The notes beneath the pieces were generated by a model that had not been told where the DNA came from, made no database searches, and saw only the letters and a list, made by a program, of their open reading frames with translations. Shown in pieces: positions 5,212 to 12,659 of a stretch of 64,000 nt of DNA (the first letter of the stretch is position 1; each line of letters opens with the position of its first letter). This DNA is from Elizabethkingia sp. YR214 (GTDB lineage Bacteria > Bacteroidota > Bacteroidia > Flavobacteriales > Weeksellaceae): assembly GCF_003058195.1 (NCBI RefSeq), contig NZ_QBUH01000002.1, forward strand, positions 372,001-436,000. The letters run 5' to 3'. The position numbers and the translations under genes are program-made.

Positions 5212-5940
5212 TTATTTAATTGATTTTATAAATTCTGCAGCTTTGGTTTCCCATTCCTGATTTTCTAAAAGAATTTTCACAAAAGCTGAACCTATAATTG
5301 CACCATCTGCATGTTGTGCTACTTTGTCAAAATCAGTTTTATTTTTGATACTAAATCCAATTAGTATTGGGTTTTTCAGATTCAGTGAACTTAGACGTTT
5401 AAAATAAGCATCGTTATCAATTTCCTGATTGGTACCGGTTGTAGAAGAACTACTCACTGCATACAGGAAGCCAGAACTTAGACTATCCAAATACAGGATT
5501 CTCTCATCCGAAGTTTCCGGAGTCACAAGAAAAGTAAAATTGATACCATATTGCTCTAGAATCTTTTGATATTTCTTTTCAAATTCTATAGGAGGTAAAT
5601 CGGGAAGTATTAATCCGGAAACACCGGAGGCCTGACATTCCTGGCAGAATTTTTCGAAACCGAATTTCAAAACAGGATTCAGGTATCCCATAAGAATTAC
5701 CGGAATATTGATTTCATCTTTTACTGTTTTCAATTGTCCAAAAAGCTTAGCAATGGTCATCCCGTTTTGTAAAGCCAATTCATCAGATTTCTGAATAACA
5801 GGACCATCTGCAACAGGATCACTATATGGGATTCCCACTTCTATCATATCGGCACCGGCAGACTGAATGGTTCTCATTATTTGTGCTGTATCATTCAGCT
5901 GAGGAACTCCGGCAGTAAAATATATATTGAGTTTTTTCAT
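5212..5940 (-). CDS. trpA: Tryptophan synthase alpha chain
   Basis: 242 residues, somewhat shorter than the roughly 268 of the enterobacterial enzyme. A TIM barrel splits indole-3-glycerol phosphate to indole and glyceraldehyde 3-phosphate. The catalytic pair is visible: E34 in IEVGIPYSDP and D45 in PVADGP. GYLNP and a phosphate-binding loop near IGFSIK are also present. It is last in the trp operon, 17 bp after trpB, with which it forms the channelled alpha2-beta2 complex. It should share the attenuation control described at 12019-12217. Confidence 0.97.
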   Translation of the reverse strand: MKKLNIYFTAGVPQLNDTAQIMRTIQSAGADMIEVGIPYSDPVADGPVIQKSDELALQNGMTIAKLFGQLKTVKDEINIPVILMGYLNPVLKFGFEKFCQECQASGVSGLILPDLPPIEFEKKYQKILEQYGINFTFLVTPETSDERILYLDSLSSGFLYAVSSSSTTGTNQEIDNDAYFKRLSSLNLKNPILIGFSIKNKTDFDKVAQHADGAIIGSAFVKILLENQEWETKAAEFIKSIK

Positions 5941-5957
5941 TGTTTAGAGATTAAAAG

Positions 5958-7139
5958 TTAAGCTAAATGCTTCAAATAAGTTTCCATATCCTTATCACCA
6001 CGTCCGCTAAGGCATATTACAACAACATCCTCTTTACCGAATTTTTTATGATCCAATACTGCTAAAGCATGTGCAGATTCCAATGCAGGAATAATTCCTT
6101 CAAGTTTGGTAAGTTCAAAAGCGGATTTCAATGCTTCATTATCATTTATACTGAAAAACTCTGCTCTTTTTTCCTGGAATAAATGCGCATGGAATGGACC
6201 GATACCCGGATAATCAAGCCCTGCAGAGATACTGTAAGGTTCTATAACTTGCCCGTCTTCTGTTTGCATTACAAGGCTCTGGCTACCATGTAAAATCCCT
6301 AATGTTCCTAAAAAAGTAGTTGCAGCGCTCTCACCGGAATCTTTACCCAGACCGCCGGCTTCTGCAGCAATAATACCAACACCAGGTTCATCTACAAAAT
6401 GATAAAAGGTTCCTGCAGCATTGCTTCCGCCGCCTACACAAGCAATAACATAGTCAGGATTCTCACGTCCGATATGTTCCTTCAGTTGGAATTTTATTTC
6501 TTCACTTATTATACTCTGGAATCTTGCCACCATATCTGGAAAAGGGTGAGGACCTACAACGCTGCCAATGATGTAATGAGTAGTAGAGGCATTGTTAATC
6601 CAATCTCTTAAAGCCTCGTTTACGGCATCTTTAAGTGTTTTGCTTCCGGAAGTTGCAGGGACTACAGTTGCTCCAAGCATTTTCATCCGGGCAACATTTG
6701 GAGCCTGGCGCGCAATATCAATTTCACCCATATAAACAATACATTCCAGTCCCAATAGGGCACAAGCTGTTGCTGTAGCTACACCATGTTGGCCAGCTCC
6801 GGTTTCTGCAATAATTCTGTTTTTGCCCAGTCGTTTTGCTAGCAGAGCCTGTCCTAGTGCATTATTAATCTTATGGGCACCTGTATGGTTCAGATCTTCT
6901 CTTTTCAGATATATATTTGTCTGGTATTTGTCACTGAGATTTTTAGCAAAATAAAGTGGAGTAGCTCTGCCTACATAGTCTTTAAGTAGAGCATTGTATT
7001 CCTTTCTAAAATCATCACTATTGATAATATCCAGATAATTGTCTTCTAACTCTTTTACATTAGGATAAAGCATTTCAGGGACGAATGCACCTCCGAAATC
7101 TCCATAATATCCGTATTGATCAGGATTTTTGTATTTCAT
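5958..7139 (-). CDS. trpB: Tryptophan synthase beta chain
   Basis: 393 residues, full length for the family. It is a PLP enzyme that condenses indole with serine to make tryptophan. The PLP lysine is K90 in [11 protein letters not shown], and the phosphate-binding loop is [18 protein letters not shown] gives the catalytic glutamate region. The N-terminal start [15 protein letters not shown] is the usual TrpB beginning. It lies 9 bp after trpF and 17 bp before trpA, consistent with translational coupling and a matched subunit ratio. Confidence 0.97.
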
Positions 7140-7148
7140 TTTTAGTTT

Positions 7149-7808
7149 TTATAATTGTTGGATATGTTGTATAAATTCTTTTATCTTTTCTAAGTTCTTG
7201 TCTCCCGGACTATTTTCAAATTTGGAGTTGATGTCCAAAGCAAAAGGTTTTGTTTTTAAGCCTTCCATTGTAGCTATATTTTCAGAAGAAATTCCTCCGC
7301 TTAGCAAGTATGGTTTTTGTAAATCTAATTGATCCAAAACCGACCAGTTAAATGTTTCCCCGGTTCCGCCATAAGCTTTAGAGTCCGTGTCAAACAGAAG
7401 TAAATCTGAATAAACCTCAAATTCTGAAATTTTGGATTTAAGAGCTTCGGTATTTACCTCCTGACCAATTCGGAATACTTTAATAATCTGTATATCCGGA
7501 AGAAGTTTTTTCAGATTGAGTATATATTCTATAGTTTCGTCGCCATGAAGCTGTATGTAATTCAAATGTGCTTTTTTGGCAATATCAGAAACTATAGCAA
7601 CATCTTCATTTACAAAAATGCCAACTTTTCCCAAATGATTTATTTCTGATATTTGTTCTAAATTCAAATGGTTCAGAACATAACGTGGCGATTTAGGATA
7701 GAATATAAATCCAAGAAAATCAACTTCAGACTTCTGTAGTTCCTGAATCTGATCGAGGTGTGCTAATCCACATACTTTAAGTTTCGGGTGATGATTTTGA
7801 TTTTCCAT
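7149..7808 (-). CDS. trpF: Phosphoribosylanthranilate isomerase
   Basis: 219 residues, a single TIM barrel. It catalyses the Amadori rearrangement of N-(5-phosphoribosyl)anthranilate. The general-base cysteine is in KVCGL near the N-terminus; the general-acid aspartate is in LLFDTD, followed by YGGTGETFNW and LSGGI, which bind phosphate. It is separate from trpC, unlike the fused E. coli enzyme, and only 2 bp separate the two genes. There is nothing unusual in the sequence. Confidence 0.95.
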   Translation of the reverse strand: MENQNHHPKLKVCGLAHLDQIQELQKSEVDFLGFIFYPKSPRYVLNHLNLEQISEINHLGKVGIFVNEDVAIVSDIAKKAHLNYIQLHGDETIEYILNLKKLLPDIQIIKVFRIGQEVNTEALKSKISEFEVYSDLLLFDTDSKAYGGTGETFNWSVLDQLDLQKPYLLSGGISSENIATMEGLKTKPFALDINSKFENSPGDKNLEKIKEFIQHIQQL

Positions 7809-7810
7809 TG

Positions 7811-8590
7811 TTAGACTGTTATATTGGACACGAATTCAGAGAATGTGTGTCCCGGATTTTCTCCTTTCATAAAGTATTCACCCATCAGGAAAGCATCAAA
7901 TCCCTTCTCTTTTAGGAATAAAAAGTCTTCGGTATTGTAAATCCCACTTTCTGCCACGGATAAGGTTCCAGTCGGAAGGAGGTTTTTAAGATTAACAGAG
8001 TGTTGTAAATCTACTTTAAAGTCTTTCAGATTACGATTGTTAATACCAACCAAATCAATATTGGTATTGAAATGTTTTAATTCTTCTTCTGTATGAATTT
8101 CCAAAAGAACTTCCAGATCCAGAGAATGTGCCAATACTGTAAACTCGGAAACCTGCTCCGGTGACAAACAAGCTGCAATAAGGAGAACCACATCTGCTCC
8201 CATAGCTTTGGCTTCATAGAACTGATAAGCATCGATCATGAAGTCTTTACGGAGAATAGGGATGTTGATATGTTCTCTTACATTTAGAATATCTTCTTTT
8301 GATCCTCCGAAGAATTCCGTATCTGTAAGTATAGAAATACCGCTTGCTCCATATTTTTCATAAGAAGAAACAACAGAGAGGGGATTTTGGATATCGTTAA
8401 TAATACCTTTAGAAGGAGATTTTCTTTTGAATTCAGCAATAATACCACTTTTGTTTTTTACACTTTCTTTTAATGAAAAAGTCTTACGTGAAAAGAAAGC
8501 ATGGTCTTTTAATTCTTCTGTTGAGATAAGCTTCTTAGCAGCCGTTAGCTCCAGCTGTTTTTGTGCAACAATTTTATCTAGTATATTCAT
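7811..8590 (-). CDS. trpC: Indole-3-glycerol phosphate synthase
   Basis: 259 residues. The conserved IGPS elements are present in order: EFKRKSPSKG (catalytic lysine), ISILTDTEFFGG, ILRKDF, VLLIAACL, LEVLLEIHTEEEL, VGINNRNL and VAESGI. It closes the ring of carboxyphenylaminodeoxyribulose phosphate with loss of CO2. It is followed almost directly by trpF. A 56-bp AT-rich gap separates it from trpD, larger than other gaps in the operon, with no terminator visible in it. Confidence 0.96.
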   Translation of the reverse strand: MNILDKIVAQKQLELTAAKKLISTEELKDHAFFSRKTFSLKESVKNKSGIIAEFKRKSPSKGIINDIQNPLSVVSSYEKYGASGISILTDTEFFGGSKEDILNVREHINIPILRKDFMIDAYQFYEAKAMGADVVLLIAACLSPEQVSEFTVLAHSLDLEVLLEIHTEEELKHFNTNIDLVGINNRNLKDFKVDLQHSVNLKNLLPTGTLSVAESGIYNTEDFLFLKEKGFDAFLMGEYFMKGENPGHTFSEFVSNITV

Positions 8591-8646
8591 TTTTTTAGTT
8601 CTTAGTTATTGGTTATTAATTGATGGATTTATTTAGATAAAAACAT

Positions 8647-9636
8647 CTAATTGTGAACCAACAATTGTAAACTTCTAAAGGCTTTTCCGCTTTCCAAGCT
8701 TTCTCTGCTTAATGCCAGACAAGAATCGTAATCTCCATATTTACCTGTATTCTTTAAAGCCATAGCAGCATTAGCTAGTACAACTGCGTTTTGCTCGTAG
8801 GTAGCATTACCTTTTAATATATTCAGGAAAATTTCTGCAGCTTCCTGCTTACTTGTACCACCAAATATACTATCTGCTGTGATAGTTTTAAAATGTAAGT
8901 CTTCTGCAGAATAAATTTCTTCTCCTTTTTCAGAATAAATTTTGGTATCCTGTGTAAGGCTAATCTCATCGTACCCGTCTAAAGCATGTACCAGCATAAA
9001 CTTCTCTTTTTGTTTTTGCAGTAAATATTGGTATATGCGTGCAATTTCCGGATTATAAACACCAATCATGGAGTATTTCGGTTTCGCAGGATTTACCAAT
9101 GGACCAAGAATATTAAAGAATGTACGAAGTCCAAGATTTTTACGAAGTGGTCCTACAGCTTTCAGTGCCGGATGGAAGAGTGGAGCATGGATAAAGCAGA
9201 TGTTTGCCTTTTCCAGATCTTTTTTCAGATCTTCTGCATTATCTTTAAACTGATAACCTAATTCTTCCAATACATTCGAGGCTCCACTTGTAGAAGAAAC
9301 TCCATAGTTACCATGTTTGGCTACTTGTTGTCCTGTTCCGGCTACAATGAAGCTGGCCAATGTTGATATGTTGAAAGTGTTTTTTCCGTCTCCGCCTGTA
9401 CCTACGATATCAACGAGATCATTAGTGCCTAAATCTGCAGGAACAGCTAATTGTAATAATGCTTCCTGAAAACCTTCTAATTCAGCAAGTGTAATGTTAC
9501 GCATGAGAAATACTGATACAAAAGCTGTGACTTCGTTTTCATTGTATCTGTTTTGTGCGATTTCACTAAGTATAGCTTTGGCTTCAGCCCGTGAAAGTGT
9601 ATGATGATCGAAAAGGTATTGTAATATCTGTTTCAT
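8647..9636 (-). CDS. trpD: Anthranilate phosphoribosyltransferase
   Basis: 329 residues. The PRPP-binding glycine loop GTGGDGKNTFNIST is clear, as are KHGNYGVSS and GPLVNPAKP. The enzyme joins anthranilate to PRPP. It is stand-alone, not fused to the TrpG glutaminase as in enterobacteria. It begins 6 bp after trpG, so anthranilate made by TrpEG passes to it next in the pathway. Confidence 0.96.
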   Translation of the reverse strand: MKQILQYLFDHHTLSRAEAKAILSEIAQNRYNENEVTAFVSVFLMRNITLAELEGFQEALLQLAVPADLGTNDLVDIVGTGGDGKNTFNISTLASFIVAGTGQQVAKHGNYGVSSTSGASNVLEELGYQFKDNAEDLKKDLEKANICFIHAPLFHPALKAVGPLRKNLGLRTFFNILGPLVNPAKPKYSMIGVYNPEIARIYQYLLQKQKEKFMLVHALDGYDEISLTQDTKIYSEKGEEIYSAEDLHFKTITADSIFGGTSKQEAAEIFLNILKGNATYEQNAVVLANAAMALKNTGKYGDYDSCLALSRESLESGKAFRSLQLLVHN

Positions 9637-9642
9637 GGATTA

Positions 9643-10212
9643 TTAAGCATTTAAAAAGTTTTTAAGAATAGTTTCACCTTGTGGTGTAAGGATACTTTCG
9701 GGATGAAACTGTACAGCATGGACATTGTAATTTTTGTGCTGCAGAGCCATGATCATTCCTTTGTCGTCCACAGCCGTTATTTCCAACTCTTCAGGGAAAT
9801 TCTCATTAGCCACAGCCCAGCTGTGGTATCTTCCTGCTTCAAAGTTTTCAGGTAAATCTTTAAAGAGTAATGTATTGTCTTTTATAATCTGTACATCAGT
9901 AGCCACCCCATGGTATATTTCGGAAAGGTTAATAAGGCTTCCACCAAATGCTTCTGCAATAGCTTGCTGGCCAAGACATACACCAAAAATCTCTTTTTTT
10001 GGAGCATATTCTCTGATCAAATCCAGAAGAATTCCTGCTTCCGAAGGAATTCCAGGTCCCGGTGAAAGAATGATTTTGTCATACTGATCTACTTCAGCAA
10101 GTGTGATTTGATTATTTCTGATCACGTCTACAGAATGTCCGACTATTTTTTCAATGATCTGTACAAGGTTATATGTAAAACTATCGTAATTGTCAAAAAC
10201 TAATATCTTCAT
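9643..10212 (-). CDS. trpG: Anthranilate synthase component II (glutamine amidotransferase)
   Basis: 189 residues, a class I glutaminase. The nucleophile is in GVCLGQQ, and the His/Glu partners are in VQFHPES near the C-terminus. The start MKILVFDNYDSFTYNL is typical of TrpG/PabA. It supplies ammonia to TrpE. PabA and TrpG cannot be separated from sequence alone, but the position between trpE and trpD decides for trpG; it might also serve folate synthesis. Confidence 0.95.
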   Translation of the reverse strand: MKILVFDNYDSFTYNLVQIIEKIVGHSVDVIRNNQITLAEVDQYDKIILSPGPGIPSEAGILLDLIREYAPKKEIFGVCLGQQAIAEAFGGSLINLSEIYHGVATDVQIIKDNTLLFKDLPENFEAGRYHSWAVANENFPEELEITAVDDKGMIMALQHKNYNVHAVQFHPESILTPQGETILKNFLNA

Positions 10213-10231
10213 AATTGTTAATTCTCAATGG

Positions 10232-10561
10232 TTAATTGTTAATGTTATTTTTAGTGGTTTTAATAATGCTTGTTATCAACTTTATAATCTCAACAGCATC
10301 CTCATTCATACTTTCAAATTCTTGCACTGAAAGGTAATCAGTAGCCTGAAATAACTCCAACCAATAAATAGTTTCGTTAATTTCTTTTTGTGCATGTTCA
10401 CTTTCTCTTATCATTGCACCTACGCTGGTTCCGCTTCGTAATATTTGTTTGCTTAAAACAAACTCCTTCTTATCACTAGATAAATACTGGTAAAGCTTTA
10501 TGATCCGAACCGCAAAATCAAAACTTTTCTGTTTAACAATATTGTCTTCTTTCATAACCAT
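10232..10561 (-). CDS. Four-helix bundle protein (23S rRNA IVS-type), inserted in the trp operon
   Basis: 109 residues, all helical, with the family phrase LRSGTSVGAMIRESEHAQ in the middle (written in part: GTSVGAMIRE). Proteins of this four-helix bundle family (S23/IVP) are encoded in intervening sequences of 23S rRNA and as scattered ORFs in Bacteroidetes; no enzymatic role is known. It sits between trpE and trpG on the operon strand. The ATG lies 6 bp after the trpE stop, and a second in-frame ATG two codons later may be used instead. AT-rich sequences at its two ends are partly inverted copies (GGTTAATT near 10230 and AATTAACC near 10575), which suggests a mobile module. Confidence 0.85.
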   Translation of the reverse strand: MVMKEDNIVKQKSFDFAVRIIKLYQYLSSDKKEFVLSKQILRSGTSVGAMIRESEHAQKEINETIYWLELFQATDYLSVQEFESMNEDAVEIIKLITSIIKTTKNNINN

Positions 10562-10567
10562 TAACGA

Positions 10568-11995
10568 TTAATAATTAACCATTTTATTGGCTTTCTTTAA
10601 TGCAGATTTTAATGCATTTAATTTGTTTTTTACTTCCTGCACTTCACTTTGAGTATCGGATTTGGCAACAACCCCGGCTCCGGCCTGATAATAAAGTGTA
10701 TTATTCTTACTAAGGAATGTACGGATCATAATAGCCTGATTACAACTCCCGTCGAATCCTACAAATCCTATACAGCCACCATAGTAGCCTCTGGAAGTTT
10801 TTTCATATTTATCAATAAGTTCCATAGCCATATATTTTGGAGCACCGCTTAGTGTTCCCTGCGGGAAAGTTGTAGCAATCATTTCAAAAGGATTTGTTCC
10901 TACAGCAACATCTGCAGTAACTTCACTTACCATATGAATAACATGAGAGAAGAAGTGGATTTCTTTGAGCTTGGATACTGTTGTATTTTTACCCATTATG
11001 CTAAGGTCATTTCTTGCGAGGTCTACAAGCATAGTGTGTTCAGCATTTTCTTTTGGATCTTTTCTTAGCGCTTCTGCAGAAGCAAGATCAGTTTCTACGT
11101 TTCCTGTACGTTTAAATGTTCCGGCGATAGGATGGATAATTGCCTTCTGATCCTTGATAATCAACTGGCTTTCCGGACTGGAACCAAAGATTTTATAACT
11201 TCCGTAATCAAAATAAAAAAGATAAGGGGAAGGGTTGATATTTCGCAATGCTCTGTAGACATTGAATTCATCTCCTGAAAATTGTTGCTCGAATCTGCGG
11301 CTAAGTACCATCTGAAAAGTATCGCCTCTCATCGCATGCTTTTTGGCCATTTCTACTAATTCAGCCATTTCTTCATCAGTAAGGTTGGACTTTTCCTCAT
11401 CTTTTGTTTCAAAAGGGAATACAGGTGCATTTTTCTGATTGATAAAAGTTTCCAGAGTGGAAAAATCAGATTCCAGACCTTTGATTTTATTCTCGAAAAT
11501 TGTCATTTCGTCATTGAAATGATTGATGGCAACTACGTATTGATATAATCTGTAACGCATTAACGGAATATCGGTTTCCGGAGAAGCTGGTTTGAATTTT
11601 ACCGTATCGAAAAACTGAACAGCATCGTAGCTGGTGTATCCGTATAATCCCTGTGCCAGATTTGCCAAAGGATGTTCAGATTTTTCCGGAACAAAACAAT
11701 TCGAGAATTCCTGTAAAACCTGTGTGAGTTTTTCACTTCCCAGCTGGTGTTTTTCGGGTGCCTGATTAGGAAATTTAACTTCTATTTCTGTAAGGCTTTT
11801 AATCTCAATACCGGAAATTGCATTTACACAGATAAAAGAGTAGTTGTTGTTTGTATTTTGGTTTCCGGCACTCTCTAATAGAATAGTGTCGCGGTAACGG
11901 TCGCGAAGACGAAGATAGATTCCTATAGGCGTATACAGGTCACTCAGGTAATTTTTATGTTTGGTTGTAATGTTAATGTTCTGGTTAAAATTCAT
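10568..11995 (-). CDS. trpE: Anthranilate synthase component I
   Basis: 475 residues. An N-terminal regulatory domain carries LLESA, the tryptophan feedback-binding motif. The C-terminal chorismate-utilising domain carries PSPYLFY, HPIAGT, HTMLVDLARND, GTLSGAPK and a final RAGAG-like QAGAGVVA. It converts chorismate and ammonia to anthranilate. It is the first structural gene, beginning 23 bp after the attenuator U-tract, so it is controlled both by feedback and by attenuation. The last codons (MVNY) lie in the AT-rich repeat that borders the four-helix ORF. Confidence 0.97.
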   Translation of the reverse strand: MNFNQNINITTKHKNYLSDLYTPIGIYLRLRDRYRDTILLESAGNQNTNNNYSFICVNAISGIEIKSLTEIEVKFPNQAPEKHQLGSEKLTQVLQEFSNCFVPEKSEHPLANLAQGLYGYTSYDAVQFFDTVKFKPASPETDIPLMRYRLYQYVVAINHFNDEMTIFENKIKGLESDFSTLETFINQKNAPVFPFETKDEEKSNLTDEEMAELVEMAKKHAMRGDTFQMVLSRRFEQQFSGDEFNVYRALRNINPSPYLFYFDYGSYKIFGSSPESQLIIKDQKAIIHPIAGTFKRTGNVETDLASAEALRKDPKENAEHTMLVDLARNDLSIMGKNTTVSKLKEIHFFSHVIHMVSEVTADVAVGTNPFEMIATTFPQGTLSGAPKYMAMELIDKYEKTSRGYYGGCIGFVGFDGSCNQAIMIRTFLSKNNTLYYQAGAGVVAKSDTQSEVQEVKNKLNALKSALKKANKMVNY

Positions 11996-12018: not shown

Positions 12019-12053
12019 AAAAAAAAGACTTCGACACAATATGCCGAAGTCTT
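12019..12053 (-). terminator. trp attenuator: intrinsic terminator hairpin
   Basis: The stem arms AAGACTTCG (plus-strand 12025-12033) and CGAAGTCTT (12045-12053) pair perfectly over 9 bp around an 11-nt loop. On the minus strand they are followed by eight U residues (12019-12026). The hairpin sits between the leader peptide stop and the trpE start at 11995. Confidence 0.92.
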
Positions 12054-12117
12054 AAACTCTTTTCTAATATTATTTATCCTAATTATAATACATAGAGGAA
12101 GCGCCCAGATCCGACAT
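12041..12117 (-). promoter_or_regulatory. trp antiterminator pairing (segment 2 with segment 3)
   Basis: Leader RNA from 12117-12107 (AUGUCGGAUCU, codons 17-20 of the leader peptide) can pair with the 5' side of the terminator, 12041-12052 (AGACUUCGGCAU), giving about 11 pairs with one bulge and two G-U pairs. A ribosome stalled at the Trp codons would leave segment 2 free and so prevent the terminator. A competing stem forms between CCAAATC (12132-12126) and GATCTGG (12111-12105) with one mismatch. Pairing was worked out by eye. Confidence 0.75.
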
Positions 12118-12165
12118 AGATTTGGAAAGCCACCACCAGTTAGTATTATTAGTATTAAATTTCAT
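12079..12165 (-). CDS. trpL: trp operon leader peptide with three consecutive Trp codons
   Basis: A 28-residue ORF reads M-K-F-N-T-N-N-T-N, then W-W-W at codons 10-12, then 16 more residues to a TAG. Three adjacent UGG codons in so short a peptide, immediately ahead of a terminator and trpE, mark it as an attenuation sensor. Charged tRNA-Trp lets translation run to the stop and cover segment 2, so the terminator forms; scarcity stalls the ribosome over codons 10-12 and frees segment 2. No strong Shine-Dalgarno is seen, which is normal in this phylum. Confidence 0.9.
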   Translation of the reverse strand: MKFNTNNTNWWWLSKSMSDLGASSMYYN

Positions 12166-12209
12166 ATGTATTATCTATCTGCTTTGAAGCAGTTAATATT
12201 TTATCGGAG

Positions 12210-12217
12210 CAAATGTA
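12210..12217 (-). promoter_or_regulatory. trp operon promoter, -7 element
   Basis: TACATTTG on the minus strand matches the Bacteroidetes -7 consensus TAnnTTTG. Transcription would start about 6 bp downstream and give a 5' leader of roughly 40 nt before the leader peptide. A small hairpin (CTGCT/AGCAG, 12180-12193) falls in that leader. No clean -33 TTG is visible. Confidence 0.7.
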
Positions 12218-12248: not shown

Positions 12249-12659
12249 TTATTTTTTTGAATAAAAATTTTTATAAAACTCCCAATTCTCATCTGTATCA
12301 TGTATGATATCCAGCTCTGTTTCTACATTAGCGGCCATATTGATAGCAACAATTGCACTATGTACATCAGAAGTGTATACGTACCACACTCTTCTGTTTT
12401 TACCAGTAAAAGATAGGGCTAAAATAGCTTTACCATCTTTTGCAAATTCTTTTTCAAATTTATGCTCAAGATTATCAAGTTTGCCCAGCATAGTTTCGTC
12501 CGGTAAATGTGTTGTTTCATTTCCTTTGAAGCGATAAGCAATTTCTAAACGTTGAGAATATTTTCCCGAAGCAATATGTTCATCGATGTTTTCTTTACCT
12601 CGAAGGAATACAACATTTCCTTCTTCATCGTGAAACCTGTAGTTAAACCAACTGCTCAT
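12249..12659 (-). CDS. DUF695-like hypothetical protein
   Basis: 136 residues, soluble and acidic, no signal peptide. The WYVYTSD segment after ALSFTGKNRR resembles the core of DUF695 proteins, whose function is unknown; the link is tentative. The C-terminal DTDENWEFYKNFY is aromatic-rich. The start overlaps the end of the upstream permease gene by 17 bp, so the two are translationally coupled. It ends 32 bp before the trp promoter element on the same strand, and no terminator between is obvious. Confidence 0.6.
   Translation of the reverse strand: MSSWFNYRFHDEEGNVVFLRGKENIDEHIASGKYSQRLEIAYRFKGNETTHLPDETMLGKLDNLEHKFEKEFAKDGKAILALSFTGKNRRVWYVYTSDVHSAIVAINMAANVETELDIIHDTDENWEFYKNFYSKK

Follow-up and report, generated by a model that had tools for sequence, protein, structure and literature searches.

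Attenuation of the trp operon by a leader peptide has been proposed in Bacteroidetes before. The Bacteroid-trp RNA (Rfam RF01692; Weinberg 2010, PMC2864571) is a predicted class in which a hairpin ahead of trp genes contains Trp codons. For F. psychrophilum, Rochat 2019 (PMC6414381) and Guerin 2021 (PMC9723704) proposed leader-peptide attenuation of the trp and other amino-acid operons; as presented in their main text, these proposals rest on Rfam and on the structure of the 5' end. The main text of these two papers reports neither covariation between segments 2 and 3 of the leader (numbered below) nor a leaderless feature. A preliminary description of the locus that we consider here had called ribosome-polymerase coupling for attenuation of interest in this phylum; given these earlier proposals, the mechanism is not new there.

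The leader at our locus shares with trpL of E. coli the Trp codons, the alternative 1:2, 2:3, and 3:4 helices, and a terminator with a U run. Unlike E. coli trpL, it has no Shine-Dalgarno sequence, its promoter has a -7 element of the TAnnTTTG type, its three Trp codons are adjacent, and its segment 2 falls within the leader ORF, with several more codons to go before the stop is reached. In other phyla, leaderless trpL genes are known from Sinorhizobium meliloti (PMC7298713) and Streptomyces lividans (PMC8079986).

The trp leader of Elizabethkingia

We analyzed a 64,000-nucleotide stretch of an Elizabethkingia genome (the window), which encodes a trp operon on the minus strand with the gene order trpE-IVP-GDCFBA. 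The 23S_rRNA_IVP-family ORF, trpG, trpD, and trpC were assigned by Pfam, while trpF, trpB, and trpA were assigned from their translations and the gene order. (The 23S_rRNA_IVP-family ORF, at 10232-10561 on the minus strand, belongs to PF05635, encodes a four-helix bundle, and lies in the interval between trpE and trpG.) Upstream of the leader are genes for a DUF695 protein and for an amino acid permease; the DUF695 gene (12249-12659, minus strand) has its stop codon about 30 nt ahead of the -7 box of the trp promoter. TrpE is 98-99% identical in the named relatives Elizabethkingia miricola and E. occulta. We considered whether the operon was acquired by horizontal transfer from Chitinophagaceae and rejected this: genomes of the same family are closer (up to 79% identity), so the dominance of Chitinophagaceae in our first search was a search artefact. 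The features of the leader and operon are as follows.

12210..12217, minus strand: -7 promoter element TACATTTG (consensus TAnnTTTG; PMC6847099, PMC9723704)
12204..12205, minus strand: putative transcription start, placed by the 4-5 nt spacing rule, which gives a 5' UTR of about 39-40 nt
12179..12192, minus strand: 5'-UTR hairpin CTGCTTCAAAGCAG, found only in four closely related Elizabethkingia genomes
12079..12165, minus strand: trpL leader peptide ORF of 28 codons, MKFNTNNTNWWWLSKSMSDLGASSMYYN
12130..12138, minus strand: putative regulatory codons UGG UGG UGG (codons 10-12); the Trp run is conserved in relatives
12118..12126, minus strand: segment 1, UCCAAAUCU, identified from the fold and covariation; it would lie under a ribosome stalled at the Trp codons
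12104..12117, minus strand: segment 2, AUGUCGGAUCUGGG, whose partner is either segment 1 or segment 3
12041..12053, minus strand: segment 3, the 5' arm of the terminator, AAGACUUCGGCAU
12025..12037, minus strand: segment 4, the 3' arm of the terminator
12019..12026, minus strand: the eight-U run of the terminator, whose first two U are also in the stem
10568..11995, minus strand: trpE, the first structural gene (PF00425 and PF04715), with its AUG at 11995
5212..10561, minus strand: the remainder of the operon (23S_rRNA_IVP-family ORF, trpG, trpD, trpC, trpF, trpB, and trpA)

Segment 1 forms a helix with 12112-12104 that is interrupted by a 1x1 A.C mismatch. Alternatively, AUGUCGGAUCU in codons 17-20 (12117-12107) pairs with the 5' arm of the terminator (11 pairs with one bulge, -12.3 kcal/mol). 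The terminator itself, AAGACTTCGGCAT-ATT-GTGTCGAAGTCTT (12053-12025), has 13 base pairs and a 3-nt loop and folds at -17.0 kcal/mol on its own; the AUG of trpE (11995) is 23 nt past the end of the U run (12019). The fold of the whole leader is more stable than those of all but one of 200 shuffled sequences (z = -2.72). The preliminary description had already picked out the -7 element, the 28-codon ORF with UGG at codons 10-12, and the pairing of codons 17-20 with the terminator, and all of these held up. It was also right about the eight U and the distance to trpE, but it gave the terminator a stem of 9 bp. We saw no convincing -33 element at the trp promoter. Sigma-70-type promoter scans did no better than shuffles and are not applicable to this phylum.

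Conservation and covariation

Our comparison covers 186 regions that precede trpE; 110 come from the same family (by GTDB), and the other 76 are mostly from Chitinophagaceae. Of these, 181 (106 from the family and 75 others) have a leader in which Trp codons are adjacent, which argues that the leader elements in the window are not due to chance. (Four of the family loci, L183-L186, were fetched at the positions of Rfam matches and are not independent evidence.) These are short ORFs, with the Trp run usually in the context N-N-x-W-W-W, and a terminator lies downstream in 180 of the 181 regions. The residues after the Trp codons vary between genera, and the C-termini of the peptides are not conserved between genera. 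In a broader sample of 60 regions from the phylum, most have the leader, distant classes included. Three of the four family regions that lack it are from a single genus whose Rfam matches, where seen, are over 1 kb from trpE. In genus g14 (L192, L193, and L194), trpE has no adjacent Trp leader, and because several members have the Rfam match more than 1 kb away, a different gene may head the operon.

Each of the three mutually exclusive helices is maintained by compensatory changes. Because MAFFT misaligned the hairpins in the mixed-clade alignment, which made RNAalifold unusable, we tested the helices on segments anchored by register. For helix 2:3, 95% of cells are paired, both sides have changed in 17 cells, and the covariation score is 0.364, as compared to at most 0.130 for slid controls. 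Helix 3:4 has 99% of cells paired, 16 cells changed on both sides, and a covariation score of 0.406; the corresponding values for helix 1:2 are 96%, 15, and 0.557, with the register of the window's own row picked from its fold. For all three helices, the slid controls were far below the real helices, and none of 500 shuffles per helix matched the paired percentage or the covariation score. (These shuffles ignore relatedness, so the scores are strong but are not probabilities.)

Segment 2 is also matched to the terminator that it accompanies. Across 112 dereplicated leaders, a leader's own segments 2 and 3 pair with a mean energy of -12.9 kcal/mol, versus -9.8 kcal/mol if segment 2 is swapped in from another species and -8.8 kcal/mol for dinucleotide shuffles; for the window's own segment 2, 1% of dinucleotide shuffles do as well. 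The pairing itself differs by lineage, each version being matched to its own terminator: GGGG/CCCC or GAGGC/GCCUC in Chitinophagaceae, UUGUGUCG/CGACACAA in a Ferruginibacter-type group, and CAAAGUCUU/AAGACUUUG in one genus of the family. A few genera (L175-L187) have a weak 2:3 energy in the swap test; judging by eye, segment 2 may pair with the loop of the terminator instead in some of these.

A simpler account of the locus would be that it holds an ordinary terminator for the DUF695 gene and, by chance, a small ORF. The terminator would also halt read-through from 12249-12659, and we found no other terminator between that gene and the trp promoter. However, a -7 box and a conserved Trp leader intervene, relatives with a different upstream sequence retain the leader, and a plain terminator cannot yield a Trp run along with three mutually exclusive helices that covary. 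We consider this account extremely unlikely.

The 1:2 hairpin (12104-12126 on the minus strand of the window, and its counterparts in relatives) retains one 1x1 mismatch, in most cases A.C, at an equivalent position in two orders. The mismatched C pairs with G in helix 2:3, so the mismatch would weaken 1:2 relative to 2:3. A hairpin that is so unusually well kept might point to an RNA that binds a metabolite or a protein (a riboswitch or a TRAP-like system) and that overlaps coding sequence by chance. Yet its primary sequence differs widely between the orders, with the pairing kept and no conserved binding core, and no Rfam riboswitch is found on the minus strand of the window. We give this idea next to no credence.

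The element is closest to Bacteroid-trp: it lies at the same site before trpE, its Trp codons occupy the corresponding part of the hairpin, and it has the same 1:2 hairpin. Helices 2:3 and 3:4, which we tested, are absent from the RF01692 model. The window matches the full length of this model (1-131) with 23.5 bits (E = 3.2), which is below the gathering score of 49. At the gathering level, Rfam finds nothing in the window besides a tRNA and nothing in 20 related loci. RF01692 matches 37 of 148 genomes of the family (26 of them over the cut-off), typically at the equivalent position before trpE; none of these matches is in the window's genus, and the model also misses most of the leaders in the family and in Chitinophagaceae. 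Members from sister genera that do pass the cut-off sit at the same place before trpE, and the window's element has the anatomy of the class, with Trp codons in a hairpin before the trp genes of a member of the Bacteroidetes. By position and anatomy it belongs with this known predicted class, and it would work like it, although it fails the score test. What is new here is the strong evolutionary evidence and, as a lead, a predicted leaderless variant in relatives; the kind of element was already known. Judging from their position or strand, the sub-threshold Rfam matches to GibS, SNORA20, and SAM-SAH (other strand) have no relation to the leader.

Ribosome position and the proposed switch

In a folding model, we placed a ribosome on the leader with each codon in turn in the A site, let it cover 12 nt counted from that codon, and folded the RNA beyond it. 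For A-site codons 10-12, segment 2 was free, and P(2:3) was 0.99 before segment 4 was made. With the ribosome at codon 17 or later, P(2:3) was 0.00 and only the terminator remained. For the full transcript at equilibrium, the model still preferred the terminator when the ribosome was stalled (P(3:4) of about 0.96). This implies that antitermination must be kinetic, or co-transcriptional, as in the classical system. Such a switch would require ribosome and polymerase to be coupled in this phylum.

We propose that the nascent transcript would be translated into a 28-amino-acid peptide with three Trp codons. If Trp-tRNA is scarce, the ribosome would stall at codons 10-12 and cover segment 1; segment 2 would then pair with segment 3 to form the antiterminator, and the polymerase would continue into trpE. 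If Trp-tRNA is plentiful, the ribosome would advance over segment 2 and segment 3 would pair with segment 4 to form the terminator. Behind the advanced ribosome, segment 2 could re-pair with segment 1. A ribosome at the leader's stop codon is already past segment 2, which lies inside the ORF, and in the model the stretch behind it folds at -13.1 kcal/mol in total, including the inner 1:2 hairpin. Since segment 2 is uncovered at this point, termination would depend on the re-formation of 1:2.

The locus thus has a short ORF that is rich in codons for the product of the operon (three conserved UGG codons), antiterminator and terminator helices that exclude each other, and, in the model, a stall site that leaves segment 2 free. 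From the sequence and the folding model, a ribosome-mediated transcription attenuator of the Bacteroid-trp kind is by far the best explanation, and very probably the correct one. The preliminary description had read the locus as a trp attenuator with its stall site placed as attenuation requires, and it had suggested checking the leader and stems in relatives; the conservation, the covariation of the three helices, and the position-dependent folding all back that reading.

The same anatomy, a short ORF followed by alternative hairpins, would be expected if the peptide instead sensed free tryptophan or an antibiotic within the ribosome, as in the arrest of TnaC or of Erm leaders. We think this very unlikely: it is the adjacent Trp codons that are conserved while later residues vary by genus, as stalling at codons predicts, and the peptide precedes biosynthetic rather than catabolic genes. 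Besides attenuation in cis, the terminated leader RNA or the peptide could act in trans, like rnTrpL and peTrpL of Sinorhizobium. S. meliloti offers a precedent (PMC7298713), and the attenuated RNA would be a discrete species of about 190 nt with a 5' hairpin, but the variable C-termini of the peptides speak against this. Overall, action in trans seems unlikely.

If attenuation in cis operates as proposed, it would be the usual control of trp operons across much of the Bacteroidota, bacteria that make no use of Shine-Dalgarno sequences, and its range would far exceed what the present Rfam model detects. For attenuation to work, a ribosome must load early and keep up with the polymerase.

Spacing of the -7 box and predicted leaderless leaders

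In F. johnsoniae, the -7 element is followed by the transcription start after 4 or 5 nt (PMC6847099), and the main text of Guerin 2021 places the -7 box of F. psychrophilum at -12 to -5 (PMC9723704). Among the 106 leaders of the family, 79 have a TAHHTTTG box that stops 4-6 nt short of the leader's start codon. Of these 79, which represent 13 of 18 genera, 77 have a spacing of 4-5 nt and 77 start with ATG; 49 have no other in-frame ATG, GTG, or TTG ahead of the Trp codons. Given this spacing, most trp leader mRNAs in the family should be leaderless, as in S. meliloti and S. lividans. None of the 55 large ORFs in the window has a box at 4-6 nt. Published rates of leaderless mRNAs or very short 5' UTRs are 3.7% for B. 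thetaiotaomicron, 5.5% for F. psychrophilum according to the main text of Guerin 2021 (PMC9723704), and at most 13% in F. johnsoniae (PMC6847099).

For comparison, His-rich leaders precede hisG in all 19 of the family genomes that have hisG, and their box is mostly 16-23 nt away (none of the 19 at 4-6 nt). The trp and his leaders thus differ in spacing (Fisher test, P = 3e-10, with relatedness ignored). The window's genome has a his attenuator as well, with the leader MQLNAVHHHHHHSCKAS and then a terminator upstream of hisG (L262:1190-1310, G000:C5). Phe-rich leaders before pheA were not convincing.

In the window, the -7 box is 44 nt from the leader AUG, so unlike trpL of S. meliloti and S. 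lividans, its own leader would have a 5' UTR of about 40 nt. This spacing is found in the four close Elizabethkingia genomes; in L007, the fifth Elizabethkingia genome, it is 5 nt, which suggests that the longer 5' UTR is derived. Judging from these sequences, we think it probable that the trp attenuator of Weeksellaceae operates on a leaderless ORF, with transcription beginning at the leader AUG and the ribosome loading at the 5' end; that, of the two attenuators compared, only the trp one has this design (the his leaders would have a short 5' UTR); and that the design gave way to a hairpin-bearing 5' UTR of about 40-47 nt in the window's Elizabethkingia lineage and, as a separate event, in a subgroup of another genus. 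In the literature that we searched, we found no report of a leaderless trp leader in Bacteroidetes. That trp but not his leaders appear to be leaderless makes the timing of ribosome loading directly testable in this phylum, and the Elizabethkingia leader, with its added 5' UTR, is a natural comparison.

The subgroup, in genus g7 (L088, L090, L097, L107, L191, and L199), has an insertion of about 47 nt that separates the -7 box from the Trp leader. The insertion has its own hairpin (GACAG..CTGTC), which differs from that of Elizabethkingia. In L090 and L097, the former 5'-terminal ATG now begins an ORF of 16 codons, and the TGA of this ORF overlaps the ATG of the Trp leader, which suggests that translation of the two is coupled.
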